This document shows, one piece after another, positions 949 to 10,744 of a stretch of 10,744 nt of DNA (position 1 is its first letter; every line of letters begins with the position of its first letter). The stretch is from Flavobacteriia bacterium (lineage in GTDB: Bacteria; Bacteroidota; Bacteroidia; Flavobacteriales; Flavobacteriaceae), in the NCBI GenBank assembly GCA_011330545.1, contig DRQI01000266.1, forward strand, positions 1 through 10,744, read 5' to 3'. A program made the translations under genes and the position numbers. The notes beneath the pieces are model-generated. The model was given only the letters and a program-made list of their open reading frames with translations, made no database searches and was not told where the DNA came from.

Positions 949-1629
949 TTATTTTCTATCGTTAAATCGGTAAGATAAGCCGAAGATAATTTGGTTGGGC
1001 CTATTGTCTACATTGATAGAAGTATTTAAAAACCGGCCGTCTAAATCATTAGAAAACCCTTTCTCCCAACGTACATCAAAACCTAATTTTCCTATTTCCA
1101 GTCCGGTACCAATTTGCAGGCCGACACTAAAATCATTGGTTTTAATATTTTCAATTTGATTGACACTAAAATCTGTATCTATAATATATTGAAAAGAGGG
1201 GCCGGCAAAAATATGCAAAGGGCCAATTACTTTTGTGCCGATTAAAATTGGCACATCTAATTTTCTGGTTTTAAAATCGGTGTTTAACGTAGTCACACTG
1301 CTGTTATACGAATTGTTCAATTCAGTATACACAATCTCAGGCCTTACATAAAACCCTAATAATCTTGCTTTTAACCAAAAACCGATGTGATAACCGGCTT
1401 TGTCATCAGCTCCGGTAATGACATTTTGAAAATTGTTGCCGGTTTGTTCAATTAACTCTGAGAGGTCGCCTCCAAAATTATAATTCAGTCCGGCTTTTGC
1501 TCCGAAGTCAATCTTCTGGGCAAAGGTTACATTAAATAAGGTAAGGGTCAGTATTGTTAATACTAATTTTTTACTCACTGAACCAATATTTTTTTTATTG
1601 AGTCTGTGATCTTTCTTTGAAAAATTCAT
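949..1629 (-). CDS. Outer-membrane beta-barrel protein, porin family (paralogue 1 of 3)
   Basis: A 226-residue secreted protein of the small Bacteroidota outer-membrane barrel type (PorT / OMP_b-brl_2-like). A signal peptide (KKLVLTILTLTLFNVTFAQ) ends near residue 37, and the mature protein opens with DFGAKAGLNYNFGG. Alternating beta-strand pattern follows, including YVRPEIVY (94-101), LHIFAGPSFQYII (138-150), FDVRWE and a final strand IIFGLSYRF. The ATG at 1629 puts 17 charged residues before the signal peptide. A GTG at 1576-1578 would give MSKKLVLT, a more normal signal start, and has an A-run upstream, but GTG starts are uncommon in this group, so the true start is open. It shares the AGPS motif and strand order with the two genes upstream. 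Ligand or pore function is unknown; such proteins are often annotated 'porin family' without evidence of a pore. Confidence 0.85.
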   Translation of the reverse strand: MNFSKKDHRLNKKNIGSVSKKLVLTILTLTLFNVTFAQKIDFGAKAGLNYNFGGDLSELIEQTGNNFQNVITGADDKAGYHIGFWLKARLLGFYVRPEIVYTELNNSYNSSVTTLNTDFKTRKLDVPILIGTKVIGPLHIFAGPSFQYIIDTDFSVNQIENIKTNDFSVGLQIGTGLEIGKLGFDVRWEKGFSNDLDGRFLNTSINVDNRPNQIIFGLSYRFNDRK

Positions 1630-1678
1630 GATAAATGATTTTTAAGGGAAAATCCCATTAATAATTGTTTATCAAACG

Positions 1679-1686
1679 CAAAAGTA
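1679..1686 (-). promoter_or_regulatory. Bacteroidota -7 promoter box for the distal barrel gene
   Basis: On the minus strand this reads TACTTTTG, an exact match to the TAnnTTTG consensus known for Bacteroidota primary-sigma promoters. It sits 49 bases before the ATG at 1629, which predicts a leader of roughly 40-45 bases. I see no convincing TTG -33 element at the usual distance. The same TACTTTT/TACTATTTT core followed by CG occurs upstream of the other two barrel genes. Confidence 0.45.
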
Positions 1687-1709
1687 ATGCCAATATTCTT
1701 TTTTGGATG

Positions 1710-2330
1710 TTAATTTAGCTGATAGGCAAAACTAAGAATAAGCTGATTCGATTTTGTTTCAATAAAATAACCCGCTCCGTCAGCAGGCACCTGATCTAAA
1801 AATGATGCCAGGTTTTCAGAAATATTAGATGTATATCGTAAATCTACAGTAAATTTATGAAGTTGTATATCAGCGCCAATGGCGTACTTGAAAGCAATAG
1901 TATTTTCAATATTCAAATCAAATGAAGGCGCAAATTTAGTATTGATAATATATTGTAAAGACGGCCCGGCATATAGATGCAATGGTTTTATAACACTAAA
2001 ACCAACCAATACAGGAAACTCTAAACTTGTCATTTTAAATTCAGAAGAAAGTGCGAGGATATTATTATATGAATTTTTGGTATGCGATAAAATGAGCTCG
2101 GGCCTAATAAAAATTTTTGTAAAGTTTACTTGCGTATAAAATCCTAATTGATACCCAATTTCATTTTCACTACTTATTTTTTCATTGAGCCCGGCAAGAG
2201 TACCAACAATAGTCAGGTTGCCATTGCCATTGTAGTTTAAACCCGCTTTAACACCATAATCAACACTTAGTTGTGCAGGCATTGTCAGGTAAAAAAGGAT
2301 GCTTATCGAGGTAACTACTATTTTTTTCAT
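1710..2330 (-). CDS. Outer-membrane beta-barrel protein, porin family (paralogue 2 of 3)
   Basis: 206 residues. A signal peptide (MKKIVVTSISILFYLTMPA, cleavage before Gln20) is followed by VDYGVKAGLNYNGNGNL, the same opening as its neighbours. The characteristic strands are IFIRPELIL (73-81), LEFPVLVGFSVIKPLHLY, AGPSLQYII (121-129), VDLRYTSNISENL, and a C-terminal strand SNQLILSFAYQLN ending on a hydrophobic/aromatic pattern typical of barrel assembly signals. It is closest in sequence to the gene at 2470-3108 (SNQ-L-S-AY/SY-LN ending and ISENL/LSKN loop). The ATG at 2330 directly precedes the signal peptide, so the start is secure. Spacing of 80 bases to the next gene and 139 bases to the previous one suggests separate transcription. 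Function beyond outer-membrane location is unknown. Confidence 0.87.
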   Translation of the reverse strand: MKKIVVTSISILFYLTMPAQLSVDYGVKAGLNYNGNGNLTIVGTLAGLNEKISSENEIGYQLGFYTQVNFTKIFIRPELILSHTKNSYNNILALSSEFKMTSLEFPVLVGFSVIKPLHLYAGPSLQYIINTKFAPSFDLNIENTIAFKYAIGADIQLHKFTVDLRYTSNISENLASFLDQVPADGAGYFIETKSNQLILSFAYQLN

Positions 2331-2377
2331 TTTGTAGTATTTAGTTTCCTACAAGATGAAAAAAATAAAAGAAGGTT

Positions 2378-2402
2378 GCGAAAAAATAGTATTTACTTTC
2401 GC
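2378..2402 (-). promoter_or_regulatory. Palindrome over a promoter-like sequence upstream of paralogue 2
   Basis: A 25-base imperfect palindrome: arms GCGAAA (2378-2383) and TTTCGC (2397-2402), with an inner AAATA/TATTT pair about a central G. The minus strand reads TACTATTTTTTCGC here, close in position and wording to the TACTTTTC...CGC box of paralogue 3. It could be the promoter with an overlapping operator, or the residue of a terminator for paralogue 3. There is no exact TAnnTTTG match, so the promoter call is weak. Confidence 0.3.
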
Positions 2403-2469
2403 ACTACATAGAGATACATATCGTAAAAACAATCTTTATCAACTTTTTAAAAACTTACTTTTAATTTTG

Positions 2470-3108
2470 TCAATTTAATTTGTAAGATATCCCTAGAGTA
2501 AATTGATTTGATTTCGTATCGAGATTATACCCAACTCCATCCACAATGGTAGCATCTAGATTGATGGCATTATTTTTTGACAGGTTAGAAGAGTATCTCA
2601 CATCTATGCCAAACCTTTTGATTTCAAACAGGCCGCCGATATTAAATGCAAATGCCAAGTCTTTATCAATATTCAAGTCAACATTATCAAACGCATCTAA
2701 TGTATTGTTTAGATGATATTCAAGAGAAGGCCCTGCATATAAGCTAAAGGGTTTGAATACCTTATATCCGAGAAGTACGGGTAATTTTAATCGAGAATTA
2801 GAATATTCAGAATCATTAGATTGATTCAATGAGTAGCTCGAATTTAATTGAGAAAACAACAATTCTGTACGGATAAAAATTTTCGAAATATCCATTTGGG
2901 CATAAACACCTATATCAAATCCAATTTCTCGATTGTCTTTAAAGAATGTTATAGGCGCTTCAGGAATTTGCAAGCCTCCAACAAGGTTTAAATCACCACT
3001 TGAACTAAAATTCAAACCGCCTTTGATACCATAAGAAATATCTAATTGGGCATTTGACGTAATAAAAGAGAAAGTGAATAATAGGGTGAAATATACTTTT
3101 TTCATCAT
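2470..3108 (-). CDS. Outer-membrane beta-barrel protein, porin family (paralogue 3 of 3)
   Basis: 212 residues from the first of two adjacent ATG codons (3106-3108 and 3103-3105); either gives a normal signal peptide (KKVYFTLLFTFSFITSNA, cleavage before Gln21). The mature protein begins LDISYGIKGGLNFSSSGDL and carries the family strands: IFIRTELLFSQLNSSY (77-92), LKLPVLLGYKVFKPFSLY, AGPSLEYHL (125-133), IDVRYSSNLSKN, and the last strand SNQFTLGISYKLN. The gene lies 64 bases downstream of the transketolase stop, and its promoter-like box is inside that gap. With the next two genes it forms a tandem paralogue set, presumably from local duplication. Substrate is not predictable; the short length suggests an 8-stranded barrel, which would be too narrow for a general porin. 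Confidence 0.87.
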   Translation of the reverse strand: MMKKVYFTLLFTFSFITSNAQLDISYGIKGGLNFSSSGDLNLVGGLQIPEAPITFFKDNREIGFDIGVYAQMDISKIFIRTELLFSQLNSSYSLNQSNDSEYSNSRLKLPVLLGYKVFKPFSLYAGPSLEYHLNNTLDAFDNVDLNIDKDLAFAFNIGGLFEIKRFGIDVRYSSNLSKNNAINLDATIVDGVGYNLDTKSNQFTLGISYKLN

Positions 3109-6234: not shown

Positions 6235-6286
6235 GGCTTGGCTTTTTTGAGATTTATGTCAGCAAAATTCAGTAAAATACCAAGCC
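6235..6286. repeat. 7-bp inverted repeat next to the RiPP terminator
   Basis: GGCTTGG (6235-6241) and CCAAGCC (6280-6286) are perfect complements 38 bases apart. The right copy overlaps the outer end of the terminator stem (6283-6320), so the two pairings compete for AGCC. It may be chance or the leftover of a degraded hairpin. Confidence 0.35.
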
Positions 6287-6320
6287 ATAACACCTTGCAT
6301 GTGTAGAAGGTGTTATGGCT
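6283..6320 (-). terminator. Intrinsic terminator of the RiPP-like precursor gene
   Basis: A perfect 14-base-pair stem (6283-6296 AGCCATAACACCTT with 6307-6320) and a ten-base loop. It begins 47 bases after the stop of the small gene at 6368-6526 and is followed on the minus strand by a moderately T-rich run (TGGTATTTTACTG). It separates that gene from the smpB promoter, so the small gene appears to be its own transcription unit. Confidence 0.8.
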
Positions 6321-6367
6321 ATAATCTTCTACTGTATCTTGATAGTACCTATTTACAATAAAAGATA

Positions 6368-6526
6368 TTATACGTCAGAAGTACACAAGGTATTTTTTGA
6401 AAAATCTGTGATTGTGGTAATGGTATACCAACTTCCGCCTTGAACTTCTCTTAACGATTTTCTGTTTAACGTAGCAATGGTTTGCTTGTTAAATTTTAAA
6501 TGACTTGTTTTTGCAAGTTTTTTCAT
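6368..6526 (-). CDS. Gly-Gly-leader RiPP precursor, lanthipeptide-like
   Basis: A 52-codon frame (ATG 6524-6526, TAA 6368-6370). The protein starts MKKLAKTSHLKFNKQTIATL and continues NRKSLREVQGG to residue 31. This is the leader pattern of Bacteroidota 'class I lanthipeptide' or GG-type natural product precursors: a basic N-terminus, a LxFNKxTIxxLN-like helix and a double glycine that C39 peptidase transporters cut. The predicted core is 21 residues: SWYTITTITDF then SKNTLCTSDV. It has nine Ser/Thr but a single Cys (Cys48), so at most one lanthionine ring could form; other Thr could be dehydrated or left free. No LanB, LanC, radical SAM enzyme or peptidase transporter is in the window. A dedicated terminator (6283-6320) and an A-rich leader (AATATTTTTATT) before the ATG support a real gene. 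It is the only product here that I would call a peptide natural product candidate; activity is unknown. Confidence 0.72.
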   Translation of the reverse strand: MKKLAKTSHLKFNKQTIATLNRKSLREVQGGSWYTITTITDFSKNTLCTSDV

Positions 6527-6653
6527 AATAAAAATATTAAATTGTTTTACCTACTCTATTTTGGCTTTTCGGTTTGTGCCAGAAATTATTGCAACTAATT
6601 TTTATAGGTAAATAAAAATATAAATATTTGATTATTAAAATATTACCTCTTTA

Positions 6654-6687
6654 TATTTATAAATTTAAACCCTGTATTTATAAATTT
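6654..6687. repeat. Two 13-bp AT-only direct repeats, 21-bp period
   Basis: TATTTATAAATTT occurs at 6654-6666 and again at 6675-6687, a period of exactly 21 bases, which places both copies on the same face of the helix. Each contains the palindrome TTTATAAA. They lie about 130 bases upstream of the RiPP-like gene, in a non-coding stretch (6527-6751) in which I see no other gene and no exact TAnnTTTG box. They could be regulator sites or an upstream element, or simply low-complexity sequence. Confidence 0.35.
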
Positions 6688-6718
6688 TGGTATGGATAAC
6701 TTTCAATTGAAAAAGAGT

Positions 6719-8349: not shown

Positions 8350-10744
8350 TTATTCGTTTTCGCCTTCATTTTCCGTTGTTGTCTCGGTAGTTATTTCTTC
8401 GGCTTCTTCGGTTCTGTATTTTTTCCCTTCAATAATATAATAAAGCAACGGAACCACAATAAGCGTTAAGAATGTCGACACGATGGCTCCGGCAACTAAT
8501 GAAATTGCCAAGCCTTGAAAAATAGGGTCGAATAAGATGATAGATGCCCCGATTACAACAGCTCCGGTAGTTAATAAAATAGGTGTTGTACGTACTGCAC
8601 CGGCATCAATGATGGCTTGTTTGATAGGAATGCCGTCTTTCAACCGTATTTCAATAAAGTCAATTATCAATACCGAATTCCGTACCATTACTCCCGCCAA
8701 GGCAATCATTCCGATAAATGAAGTGGCGGTAAAAAAGGCTCCGAATGCCCAATGGCCCAAAACAATTCCGATTAATGACAACGGAATTGCCGCCATCATC
8801 ACTATGGGCGTTTTAAAATTTTGAAACCATCCTACAATGAGCATGTAAATAATAATTACTACTACTAAAAAGGCAATTCCCAAATCTCTAAATACTTCTA
8901 ATGTAATTTGCCATTCTCCATCCCATTTTATGGTAAAATTACTTTCATCAGAAGGTTGTTCCATATACAACTCATTTACGGTATACCCTTTCGGCAGTTT
9001 TATTTGTTGTAACTTTTCTTCCATTCCTAAAATGGCATATACGGGGCTTTCTAAAGCACCTGCCATATCGGCGGTAATATATACCACACTTTTTTGGTCT
9101 TTTCTGTAAATGGTCTTCTGTAAGGTATCGGTTTTTACGGCTACCAAGTCGCTAACCGGAATGGTCATTCCGCTACTTGATTTAATTTTGATATTTTCAA
9201 TATCTTGTAACGAACTTTTTTCATCGTCATCTAATGATAATACGATACCTATCCTTTCATTGGCATCATCATCATAGAGGTTAGAAATAGGATATTCTCT
9301 TAAAATGCTTGTCAATGCTGTTACAATTTGTTGTGGCGCCACTCCGTTTAGCATGGCTTTTTCTTTATCTACTTCTAAGCGGTATTCGGTTTGGTTAGCT
9401 TCCACCATCCAATCAACATCAACAATATCAGTTGTATTTTCCAAGATATTTTTAACTTGCTTGGCAACGTTAATTTGCTGTTCGTAATCAGGCCCGTATA
9501 CTTCGGCCACAATTGTTGACAATACGGGTGGCCCGGGGGGTACTTCTACTACTTTTACATTGGCACCGTATTTTTTTCCAATTTTTTGGATGGTAGGCCG
9601 TACAAGTTTTGCAATGTCATGGCTTTGGATACTCCTTTCTTCTTTGGGCAATAAGTTTACCTGTATATCAGCCATATTGCTGCCGCCTCGTAAATCGTAA
9701 TGACGTACCAATCCGTTAAAGGTAATAGGCGAGGAGGTACCTATATAATTTTGATAATTAACAACTTCAGGTTCTGTTGCAATGTACTGTGCAATTTCTT
9801 TGGTAACCAATGCTGTTCTTTCTAGGGTAGTACCCTCTGGCATGTCAATAATTACTTGAAACTCGTTTTTATTGTCAAACGGAAGCATTTTTACGGCAAC
9901 TGTTTTTGTAAAGAACATCATCATAGACCCTAACAATAAGATTATGGTAATGCCTAAAAATATCCAGCGTTTTTTAGAACTGTCTAATAGCGGTTGTTCT
10001 ATTTTTTTATAGAATTTATAGATAAATCCGGTTTCTACCCCTTGTGCTTCTTTGTGTTTTTGTTTGTCTTTTTCTTGTAATAGGTGATATCCTAAATACG
10101 GAGTAATGGTCAGAGCCACAAATAATGACAATAGCATGGCAATAGAAGCTCCGATGGGCATCGGACTCATATAGGGGCCCATCATACCCGATACGAATGC
10201 CATGGGTAAAATAGCTGCAATAACGGTAAAAGTGGCTAAAATGGTTGGGTTTCCTACTTCATTAATGGCAAAAATGGCGGCTTGCTTAAAAGGCAGGCGT
10301 TTCATTTTAAAATGCCGGTGCATGTTTTCGGCAATGATAATACTATCGTCAACTACAATCCCAACAACAAATACCAAAGCAAATAAGGTAATTCTATTCA
10401 ACGTATAGTCTAGCATATAGTAACTAAATAATGTCAAGGCAAAGGTTAAGGGTACCGAAAAGAAAACTACCAAACCACCGCGCCATCCCATAGCTAATAC
10501 TACTAAAATGGTAACGGCTAAAATGGCAATGCCTAAGTGTAATAGAAGCTCTCCTACTTTATGTGAGGCGGTTTCGCCATAATTTCTGGTAATTTCTACA
10601 TGTACGTCATCAGGAATTAGGTGTTGTTTTAAGCGGCCGATTTTAGTAATTATTTTTTCTGCTATTTTCATGGCATCAGCACCTTTTACTTTGGCAACCG
10701 ATACAGTTACGGCAGGATATTCAGAGCGGTTATTGGCATATTCT
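8350..10744 (-). CDS. RND efflux transporter permease (5' partial at right edge)
   Basis: The frame is open to the window edge; the ATG at 10669-10671 is internal, since 24 further codons (EYANNRSEYPAVTVSVAK...) upstream match the RND porter domain. About 797 codons are visible; compared with roughly 1,000-1,100 for the family, the first 250-300 residues are missing. Visible parts are the end of the first porter domain, helices TM2 onward with VGIVVDDSIIIAEN (Asp pair at 10345-10350, the proton-relay position), a second porter domain (about 9930 to 8930), then the second membrane bundle with FIGMIALAGVMVRNSVLIIDF and a Glu/Thr-rich cytoplasmic tail. The double Asp in TM4 and lack of the usual CusA/CzcA signature favour a hydrophobe/drug (HAE) type pump over a metal pump, but the substrate is unknown. 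Proton-driven, inner membrane; the membrane-fusion and TolC-like partners should lie beyond the right edge. Confidence 0.93.
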   Translation of the reverse strand, partial: EYANNRSEYPAVTVSVAKVKGADAMKIAEKIITKIGRLKQHLIPDDVHVEITRNYGETASHKVGELLLHLGIAILAVTILVVLAMGWRGGLVVFFSVPLTFALTLFSYYMLDYTLNRITLFALVFVVGIVVDDSIIIAENMHRHFKMKRLPFKQAAIFAINEVGNPTILATFTVIAAILPMAFVSGMMGPYMSPMPIGASIAMLLSLFVALTITPYLGYHLLQEKDKQKHKEAQGVETGFIYKFYKKIEQPLLDSSKKRWIFLGITIILLLGSMMMFFTKTVAVKMLPFDNKNEFQVIIDMPEGTTLERTALVTKEIAQYIATEPEVVNYQNYIGTSSPITFNGLVRHYDLRGGSNMADIQVNLLPKEERSIQSHDIAKLVRPTIQKIGKKYGANVKVVEVPPGPPVLSTIVAEVYGPDYEQQINVAKQVKNILENTTDIVDVDWMVEANQTEYRLEVDKEKAMLNGVAPQQIVTALTSILREYPISNLYDDDANERIGIVLSLDDDEKSSLQDIENIKIKSSSGMTIPVSDLVAVKTDTLQKTIYRKDQKSVVYITADMAGALESPVYAILGMEEKLQQIKLPKGYTVNELYMEQPSDESNFTIKWDGEWQITLEVFRDLGIAFLVVVIIIYMLIVGWFQNFKTPIVMMAAIPLSLIGIVLGHWAFGAFFTATSFIGMIALAGVMVRNSVLIIDFIEIRLKDGIPIKQAIIDAGAVRTTPILLTTGAVVIGASIILFDPIFQGLAISLVAGAIVSTFLTLIVVPLLYYIIEGKKYRTEEAEEITTETTTENEGENE

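Follow-up and report, generated by a model that had tools for sequence, protein, structure and literature searches.

The precursor gene and its genome

The window, a stretch of 10,744 nucleotides, is the entire contig C266 of a 3.13-Mb genome assembled in 544 contigs and 86.4% complete. Its neighbouring genes include, by Pfam, those for Maf, UbiA, SmpB, a histidine phosphatase and an AcrB-type transporter, and a small precursor gene stands alone between the phosphatase gene and smpB, with its ATG at 6526 and its stop at 6368 on the minus strand. The features of this locus are as follows.

6368..6526, minus strand: precursor gene, 52 aa, ATG to TAA (NF038153 match and codon comparison)
6434..6526, minus strand: leader, residues 1-31, LxFxKx5L ending in GG (NF038153; family alignment)
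6371..6433, minus strand: core, 21 residues, with the conserved tail ITTITDFSKNTLCTSD (relatives and codon comparison)
6548..6582, minus strand: RF02914 DUF805b cis-regulatory RNA (39.1 bits, gathering 35.6)
6527..6688, minus strand: 5' module, also present ahead of the C165 class II precursor (84% identical in an alignment of 164 columns)
6283..6320, minus strand: hairpin downstream of the gene, likely terminator (fold of 6255-6370)

A first-pass annotation, made by reading the letters, had proposed the 52-residue frame, and both its ATG and its stop are present. Residues 30-31 are GG, and the 21-residue core that follows contains six Thr, three Ser and one Cys, just as had been counted. The same annotation took the product for a RiPP/lanthipeptide-like precursor with a GG leader and proposed a search with leader models; residues 1-31 indeed match NCBIfam NF038153 (class I lanthipeptide leader) at 28.8 bits against a cut-off of 22 (E 6.4e-6 in six frames of the whole genome), and TIGR04149 scores 14.5 bits on the precursor, below its cut-off of 25. 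A Pfam scan of the precursor gave zero matches; the protein search nevertheless lists PF28317 for it. Leader positions L10, F12, K14, L20, G30 and G31 are invariant or nearly so in the family alignment, and a passage of PMC7268733 gives LxLxKx5L as the motif of Bacteroidetes class I precursors. The downstream hairpin, earlier called a terminator, folds well (-36.5 kcal/mol and z -5.55 for 6255-6370) and is absent from the list of a simple terminator scan, its loop being longer than the scan allows and a T-run lacking; its 12-nt arm occurs in the window's own contig only, among the loci compared.

The described isolation of the gene from modification enzymes holds, none being found among the ten window ORFs scanned with Pfam, a set that leaves out two beta-barrel-like ORFs. 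Three tandem outer-membrane beta-barrel-like ORFs occupy positions 949-3108 of the minus strand (949-1629, 1710-2330 and 2470-3108), the first of them belonging to PF13568. The annotation had also suggested a wider search of the genome for enzymes. The LanB domain PF04738 had no match in the 86.4% complete assembly, PF14028 had a single sub-cut-off match in a frame broken by stops, and the reductase found in the arrays described below was not found. Because of this incompleteness the LanB gap may be one of the assembly only. Matches to LANC_like were a LanM on C165 and a LanC-like gene on C176, neither linked to the precursor gene.

C165, L054:9988-13963: class II lanthipeptide locus with a precursor-like ORF at 10046-10246 (66 aa) and LanM at 10421-13294
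C176, L007:4986-8838: TPR-AraC regulator, two GG precursors and a LanC-like gene

The C165 locus carries a DUF805b element and a 5' module resembling that of the window gene. C39 peptidase domains gave three matches on two contigs, and C469 has a 730-aa C39-ABC transporter; with GG at residues 30-31 and a C39 peptidase transporter both present in the genome, export of the precursor is predicted. Around the C39-ABC gene of C469 (L091:1686-5919) lie Cys-rich GG precursors with MKKLANLKGVK-type leaders, which are of another kind than the window precursor.

The search for sibling precursors yielded one besides the window gene over the NF038153 cut-off, on C176, these two being the only such precursors in the genome. 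A precursor array in the source genome was rejected on this result. In a member of the same genus (L058, G015:C336), an NF038153 precursor has a LanC-like gene in its vicinity, together with a radical SAM protein whose SPASM domain scores over cut-off; this is an unusual pairing.

None of the other 59 genomes in the relatives set yielded the window precursor; five of them have NF038153 matches at E <= 0.01. Upstream of smpB in the 15 other genus members where smpB was located (up to 1,500 nt examined) there is no GG-precursor-like ORF, and the phosphatase gene occupies this side of smpB in ten of the 15 (nine by listing, one from a cut contig). The gene was therefore gained here or lost elsewhere, and its lone position is most likely due to gain.

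Relatives in precursor arrays and selection on the core

An iterated search of 5.77 billion proteins at E <= 1e-3 defined a family of 55 proteins including the window precursor; in earlier rounds a single search had returned two relatives besides the precursor itself, and an iterated one 20 proteins in all. A T[LIM]CxSD tail is found in 48 of the 55 and is absent from the other 7. All 48 tail-bearing members have a Ser five residues before the Cys, and 45 of them have exactly one core Cys, so that the single Cys remarked on in the annotation is typical of the family. Pairwise identity among the 48 averages 67% in the final 16 residues of the motif and 46% in the final 22 residues of the leader. 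At E <= 0.01, 48 of the 55 members have an NF038153 match, and these need not be the same 48. The closest protein by overall identity (P0032, 67%) also has the core start SWYTITTIT. The annotation called the gene unannotated, which does not apply to the whole family: NCBI names the Lacinutrix neustonica relative (P0025) 'class I lanthipeptide', and that protein shares its core tail with the window precursor, as does a member of a Bizionia array (L035).

Between the window gene and the Bizionia relative the core tail is identical over 16 residues, and nine of its 16 codons differ, all synonymously. By a simple count of synonymous and non-synonymous sites, 9 of 11.0 synonymous sites have changed and 0 of 37.0 non-synonymous sites, and this comparison answers the earlier call for a selection check: the core tail is under selection. 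The same count gives 5.0 non-synonymous differences in the tail against Lacinutrix and 3.5 against the third relative. The NF038153 match, the relatives and the codon comparison place the frame beyond chance: it is a RiPP precursor gene, intact and under selection, whose GG leader is of the class I lanthipeptide type.

One peptide pattern run against contigs of 84,980 species gave 40 stretches, of which three were confirmed, from Lacinutrix neustonica, an uncultured Bizionia and an uncultured Flavobacteriaceae bacterium. The family profile matched 13 of 397 family genomes at E <= 1e-3, the source genome included, with strong matches that reach the tail in three only (the source genome, G236 and G403). 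A profile match in G068 was rejected as a family member, being a chance match inside a long protein that we take to be methylmalonyl-CoA mutase-like.

The loci of the three confirmed relatives (L034, L050, L035, L093, L036 and L052) are arrays of GG precursors. Precursors with a leader match and GG number 35, 34 and 12 in the stretches scanned, 81 in all; 28 of the 81 cores have no Cys and 40 have one, and some core families recur between array genomes. Interleaved with the precursors are TPR and AraC-type HTH proteins, two checked by Pfam and the others recognized by likeness on reading. The accompanying enzyme set comprises HlyD, a C39-ABC transporter, LanB and an ADH_N protein (a dehydrogenase-like reductase). 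In Lacinutrix this set adjoins the array, in the third genome it is found close to a contig end, and in Bizionia it stands in a row beside another precursor set on a different contig. The Bizionia LanB has both PF04738 and PF14028, and its reductase ADH_N; the LanB of the third genome aligns over residues 24-1006 of 1039 to 9g04, a solved thiopeptide-type protein; in Lacinutrix both LanB and reductase read as pieces. Anti-phage models had no match to LanB or reductase.

PF04738 has one match in each of the three array genomes, and LanC (PF05147) has none in any of them. These searches covered the source genome and six others for LanB (five of the six with LanB), and seven genomes including the source for LanC (four with LanC). 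Strong matches to the array-type reductase were confined to the three array genomes among 12 searched, with weak ones in G034 and G417 at 26-28% identity. The reductase matches ADH_N, its other matches being below cut-off; with this dehydrogenase domain it is comparable to LanJA-type dehydrogenases such as LtnJA and RodJA (PMC11519912), and that it reduces dehydro residues is a guess.

The window precursor shares its leader pattern, GG site, size and Ser/Thr-rich core with Bacteroidota class I precursors (NF038153, leader L1a). It differs from them in standing alone, with one Cys, in a genome where LanB was not found, and its relatives belong to three array genomes without a LanC match. Pinensins, according to PMC7268733 the sole lanthipeptides that had been isolated from the phylum at that time, likewise belong to a class I system of Bacteroidota. 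The Lacinutrix and Bizionia relatives lie in arrays with TPR-AraC regulators where the DUF805b element was not found, whereas the window gene is alone and has the element.

The DUF805b element and the shared 5' module

Missing from the first-pass annotation was the RF02914 cis-regulatory RNA just upstream of the precursor gene. The match is full length (model 1-35 of 35), is the sole Rfam gathering match in the window and ends 21 nt from the precursor ATG. Elsewhere RF02914 reaches gathering on C176 (46.7 bits) and C165 (37.9), in G038, G393 and G040, and at one G220 locus. Within the source genome it lies 20-22 nt before the LanM-linked class II precursor of C165 and before precursor 3 of C176, which is next to LanC. 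Each of the seven gathering matches in 351,602 bases, taken from stretches selected because they contain precursors or the associated enzymes, is followed 15-22 nt later by the ATG of a precursor-like ORF; four of the seven ORFs pass NF038153. Rfam types RF02914 merely as cis-regulatory, whereas here the element marks RiPP-type precursors, one of them adjoining LanM.

A second model, built on 16 elements and applied at E < 1e-3, gave 17 rows in 380,226 bases, two of them for one place and hence 16 distinct places, and seven places in 514,606 bases. Sixteen of the 23 places are training sequences and seven are new, four of these before precursor-like ORFs (L056, L079:1646 and L121 twice) and three before other proteins. 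Altogether 19 of the 23 precede precursor-like ORFs (18 with GG, L012 with AG), most of the stretches having been chosen for precursors; one precedes the ATG of a frame cut short and three precede other proteins. For 17 of the 19, element and ATG are 17-22 nt apart, and for the other two 15 and 26 nt, a count that passes over a second in-frame ATG 9-10 nt from the element in two cases. NF038153 is passed by 11 of the 19 ORFs, the window's included, and the other eight are named by reading or place, among them C176 precursor 3 (13.8 bits) and the C165 precursor, both below every NCBIfam cut-off. Two element-bearing ORFs of other genomes pass TIGR04149.

Five of the 23 elements come from 20 stretches of G393 (400 kb) chosen regardless of precursors. 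Two of the five precede GG ORFs outside the profile list, one of which passes NF038153, and three precede other proteins, with DUF805b-like elements 17-21 nt upstream.

L118:3874-7077, minus strand: secreted M12-type peptidase
L124:18032-19861, plus strand: SprT-like protein
L109:5500-6033, plus strand: unknown protein

The peptidase ends in a secretion-sorting tail, the SprT-like protein is also lipoprotein-like, and the L109 protein has 177 aa. The element was found neither in fifteen smpB loci of the genus nor, at E < 0.1, in 20 arbitrary contigs of the source genome (117,791 bases). Weak rows left out of the 23 are window:4910, L119, L135 and L136 (E 0.3-0.92) and one among the arbitrary contigs (E 0.33); the L135 row lies 21 nt before a GG precursor-like ORF. 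Twenty further leader-only loci (L128-L147) included two with a strong element (L139 and L147), so that the element marks a subset. It was not found in the array stretches and is therefore part of the source genome's wiring, not of the peptide family.

The arms of the element vary with compensation, and its loop and tail are conserved. With the Rfam model defining the stem, an alignment of 16 elements has 93.3% paired cells and 16 two-sided cells (4.9 in shuffles), and neither value was reached in any of 500 shuffles. Of the five covariation measures, two do not exceed shuffles: the number of two-sided pairs (3 of 4; 310/500 as high) and that of pair types (5; 359/500 as high). Kinship of the sequences lifts such counts, which are therefore support and not proof.

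The likeness to C165 extends over the whole 5' module, with a local score of 208 against a shuffle maximum of 44 (0/300 shuffles as good), and ends about 9 nt inside the ORFs, after which the peptides differ in kind. Beyond the window's own contig, C165 alone among the compared loci matches the module at E <= 1e-3. What C176 precursor 3 has in common with the window is the element and the stretch to the ATG only (score 48, shuffle maximum 39), and the region upstream of C176 precursor 2 does not stand out (2/300 shuffles as good). The shared module is the clearest sign that the lone precursor may be wired into the control of another lanthipeptide locus. Promoter-like sites upstream of the precursor are no more numerous than in shuffles. 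TAnnTTTG is a promoter-type box motif, and none occurs in the 274 nt upstream of the precursor.

That dispersed precursors share an RNA hairpin suggests that they are switched on together, and co-regulation by a 5' UTR RNA is likely. The element would act at the RNA level, probably on translation, a mode of action favoured by its near-constant distance to the start codon and its compensated stem.

Control, modification and competing readings

On the whole we find it rather likely that this is a lone precursor under regulon control by a duplicated 5' module, modified in trans, cleaved at GG and exported through a C39 transporter. It would be a stand-alone member of a conserved-core family whose other placed members lie in large Flavobacteriaceae precursor arrays. 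Expression would be driven by the 5' module, consisting of a promoter region and the DUF805b RNA hairpin and duplicated from, or to, a class II lanthipeptide locus, and the dispersed precursors would be expressed as one regulon. The peptide would undergo LanB-type dehydration of Ser/Thr in trans, possibly with reduction of dehydro residues and possibly with one Ser-Cys ring, and, once cleaved behind GG, would leave the cell through a C39-type ABC transporter. Against this stands a source genome with no LanB (PF04738) or array-type reductase match; the C469 C39 transporter sits among a different precursor type, which counts against export by that protein, and the 3 of 23 elements that precede other proteins count against a role in RiPP loci only. 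Further points on that side are the eight ORFs named by reading or place, the choice of most stretches for their precursors, the array stretches in which the element was not found, its strong occurrence in just two of 20 leader-only loci, and the two covariation measures that do not exceed shuffles.

As to chemistry, one ring, which the peptide may form, is favoured by the Ser that all 48 tail-bearing members have five residues ahead of the Cys, and the lack of any LanC match counts against a ring built by an enzyme in the array genomes. The lack of LanC, the 28 of 81 cores without Cys and the dehydrogenase-like protein beside LanB speak for dehydrated, partly reduced linear peptides. A 'standard lanthipeptide' is doubtful because the array genomes have LanB and reductase with no LanC found; a dehydrated, partly reduced peptide is possible.

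Secretion of an unmodified peptide, with the conserved Cys serving in a disulfide dimer or as a free-thiol signal and the leader only for C39 export, would agree with the missing LanB and array-type reductase, the C39-ABC of the source genome and the single core Cys of 45 of 48 members. We judge it quite unlikely given a leader over the class I lanthipeptide model cut-off and LanB in the array genomes; the co-invariance of Ser and Cys (48/48) fits a ring, though it is compatible with a thiol. Somewhat less improbable, if still unlikely, is a stranded gene, gained without enzymes, idle in the source genome and heading to decay. The gene's absence from the 59 other related genomes searched, the LanB not found and the two precursors over the leader cut-off with no array seen would fit such a history, to which are opposed an intact frame, a core whose synonymous sites are nearly saturated with no amino acid changed, a separate 5' module that includes a conserved RNA element, a hairpin at the gene's end, and 86.4% completeness, by which enzymes may be absent from the assembly only. 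A radical-SAM RiPP system of the TIGR04149-like kind, in place of a lanthipeptide one, is very unlikely: the weak TIGR04149 match (14.5 bits) remains under the cut-off of 25, and no radical SAM protein was noticed beside the array enzymes in ORF lists judged by reading alone, even if two element-bearing ORFs of other genomes pass that model and L058 of the same genus pairs an NF038153 precursor with LanC and a SPASM radical SAM protein.

The element itself could be a DNA operator at a fixed position instead of an RNA, to which we give only a small chance, much as for the stranded gene. A fixed site upstream of many genes also looks operator-like, and two of five covariation measures do not exceed shuffles; the compensated arms (93.3% paired, 16 two-sided cells, 0/500 shuffles each, values that kinship can inflate) and a spacing locked to the start codon point the other way. 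The gene is short and the window has 52 ORFs of at least 40 aa, which would favour a chance open frame, yet the NF038153 match, the 55-member family with its relatives and the codon comparison rule this out, leaving it a negligible probability.

Returning to the lone precursor under regulon control, we would extend it only tentatively, and with more doubt than belief, to a wider scheme in which DUF805b is a common 5' UTR switch of a Flavobacteriales regulon of RiPPs (and a secreted peptidase), acting on translation at a fixed distance from the start codon and tying lanthipeptide classes together, and in which the peptide family is a cyclase-free class I branch, where a single LanB dehydrates the dozens of precursors of a genome and a dedicated dehydrogenase reduces them, giving linear or one-ring peptides that contain D-amino acids.

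Precursors of this kind are known, and NCBI has already named a relative. Two points are new as far as the literature searched goes: the family occurs in arrays that have LanB and no LanC match, and DUF805b is linked to RiPP-type precursors. A title or abstract describing these precursor arrays was not found there. A large mining study (PMC7268733) took LanC as its starting point; therefore clusters without LanC, including the arrays with the window's family, would fall outside its method. Neither 'DUF805b' nor 'DUF805' together with 'RNA motif' occurs in any paper of the literature searched, and none of the RNA-motif papers found there contains 'lantibiotic'. The DUF805b motif was reportedly first described in one RNA-motif paper, and this original paper lies outside that literature. 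An RNA motif typed by Rfam only as cis-regulatory here gains a concrete gene set and hence a testable role, and the element offers a route to stand-alone RiPP precursors that enzyme-centred mining can miss. At L079:1024-1059 on the minus strand (G218), the element stands before an ATG frame that is ended within a few codons by an inverted repeat.
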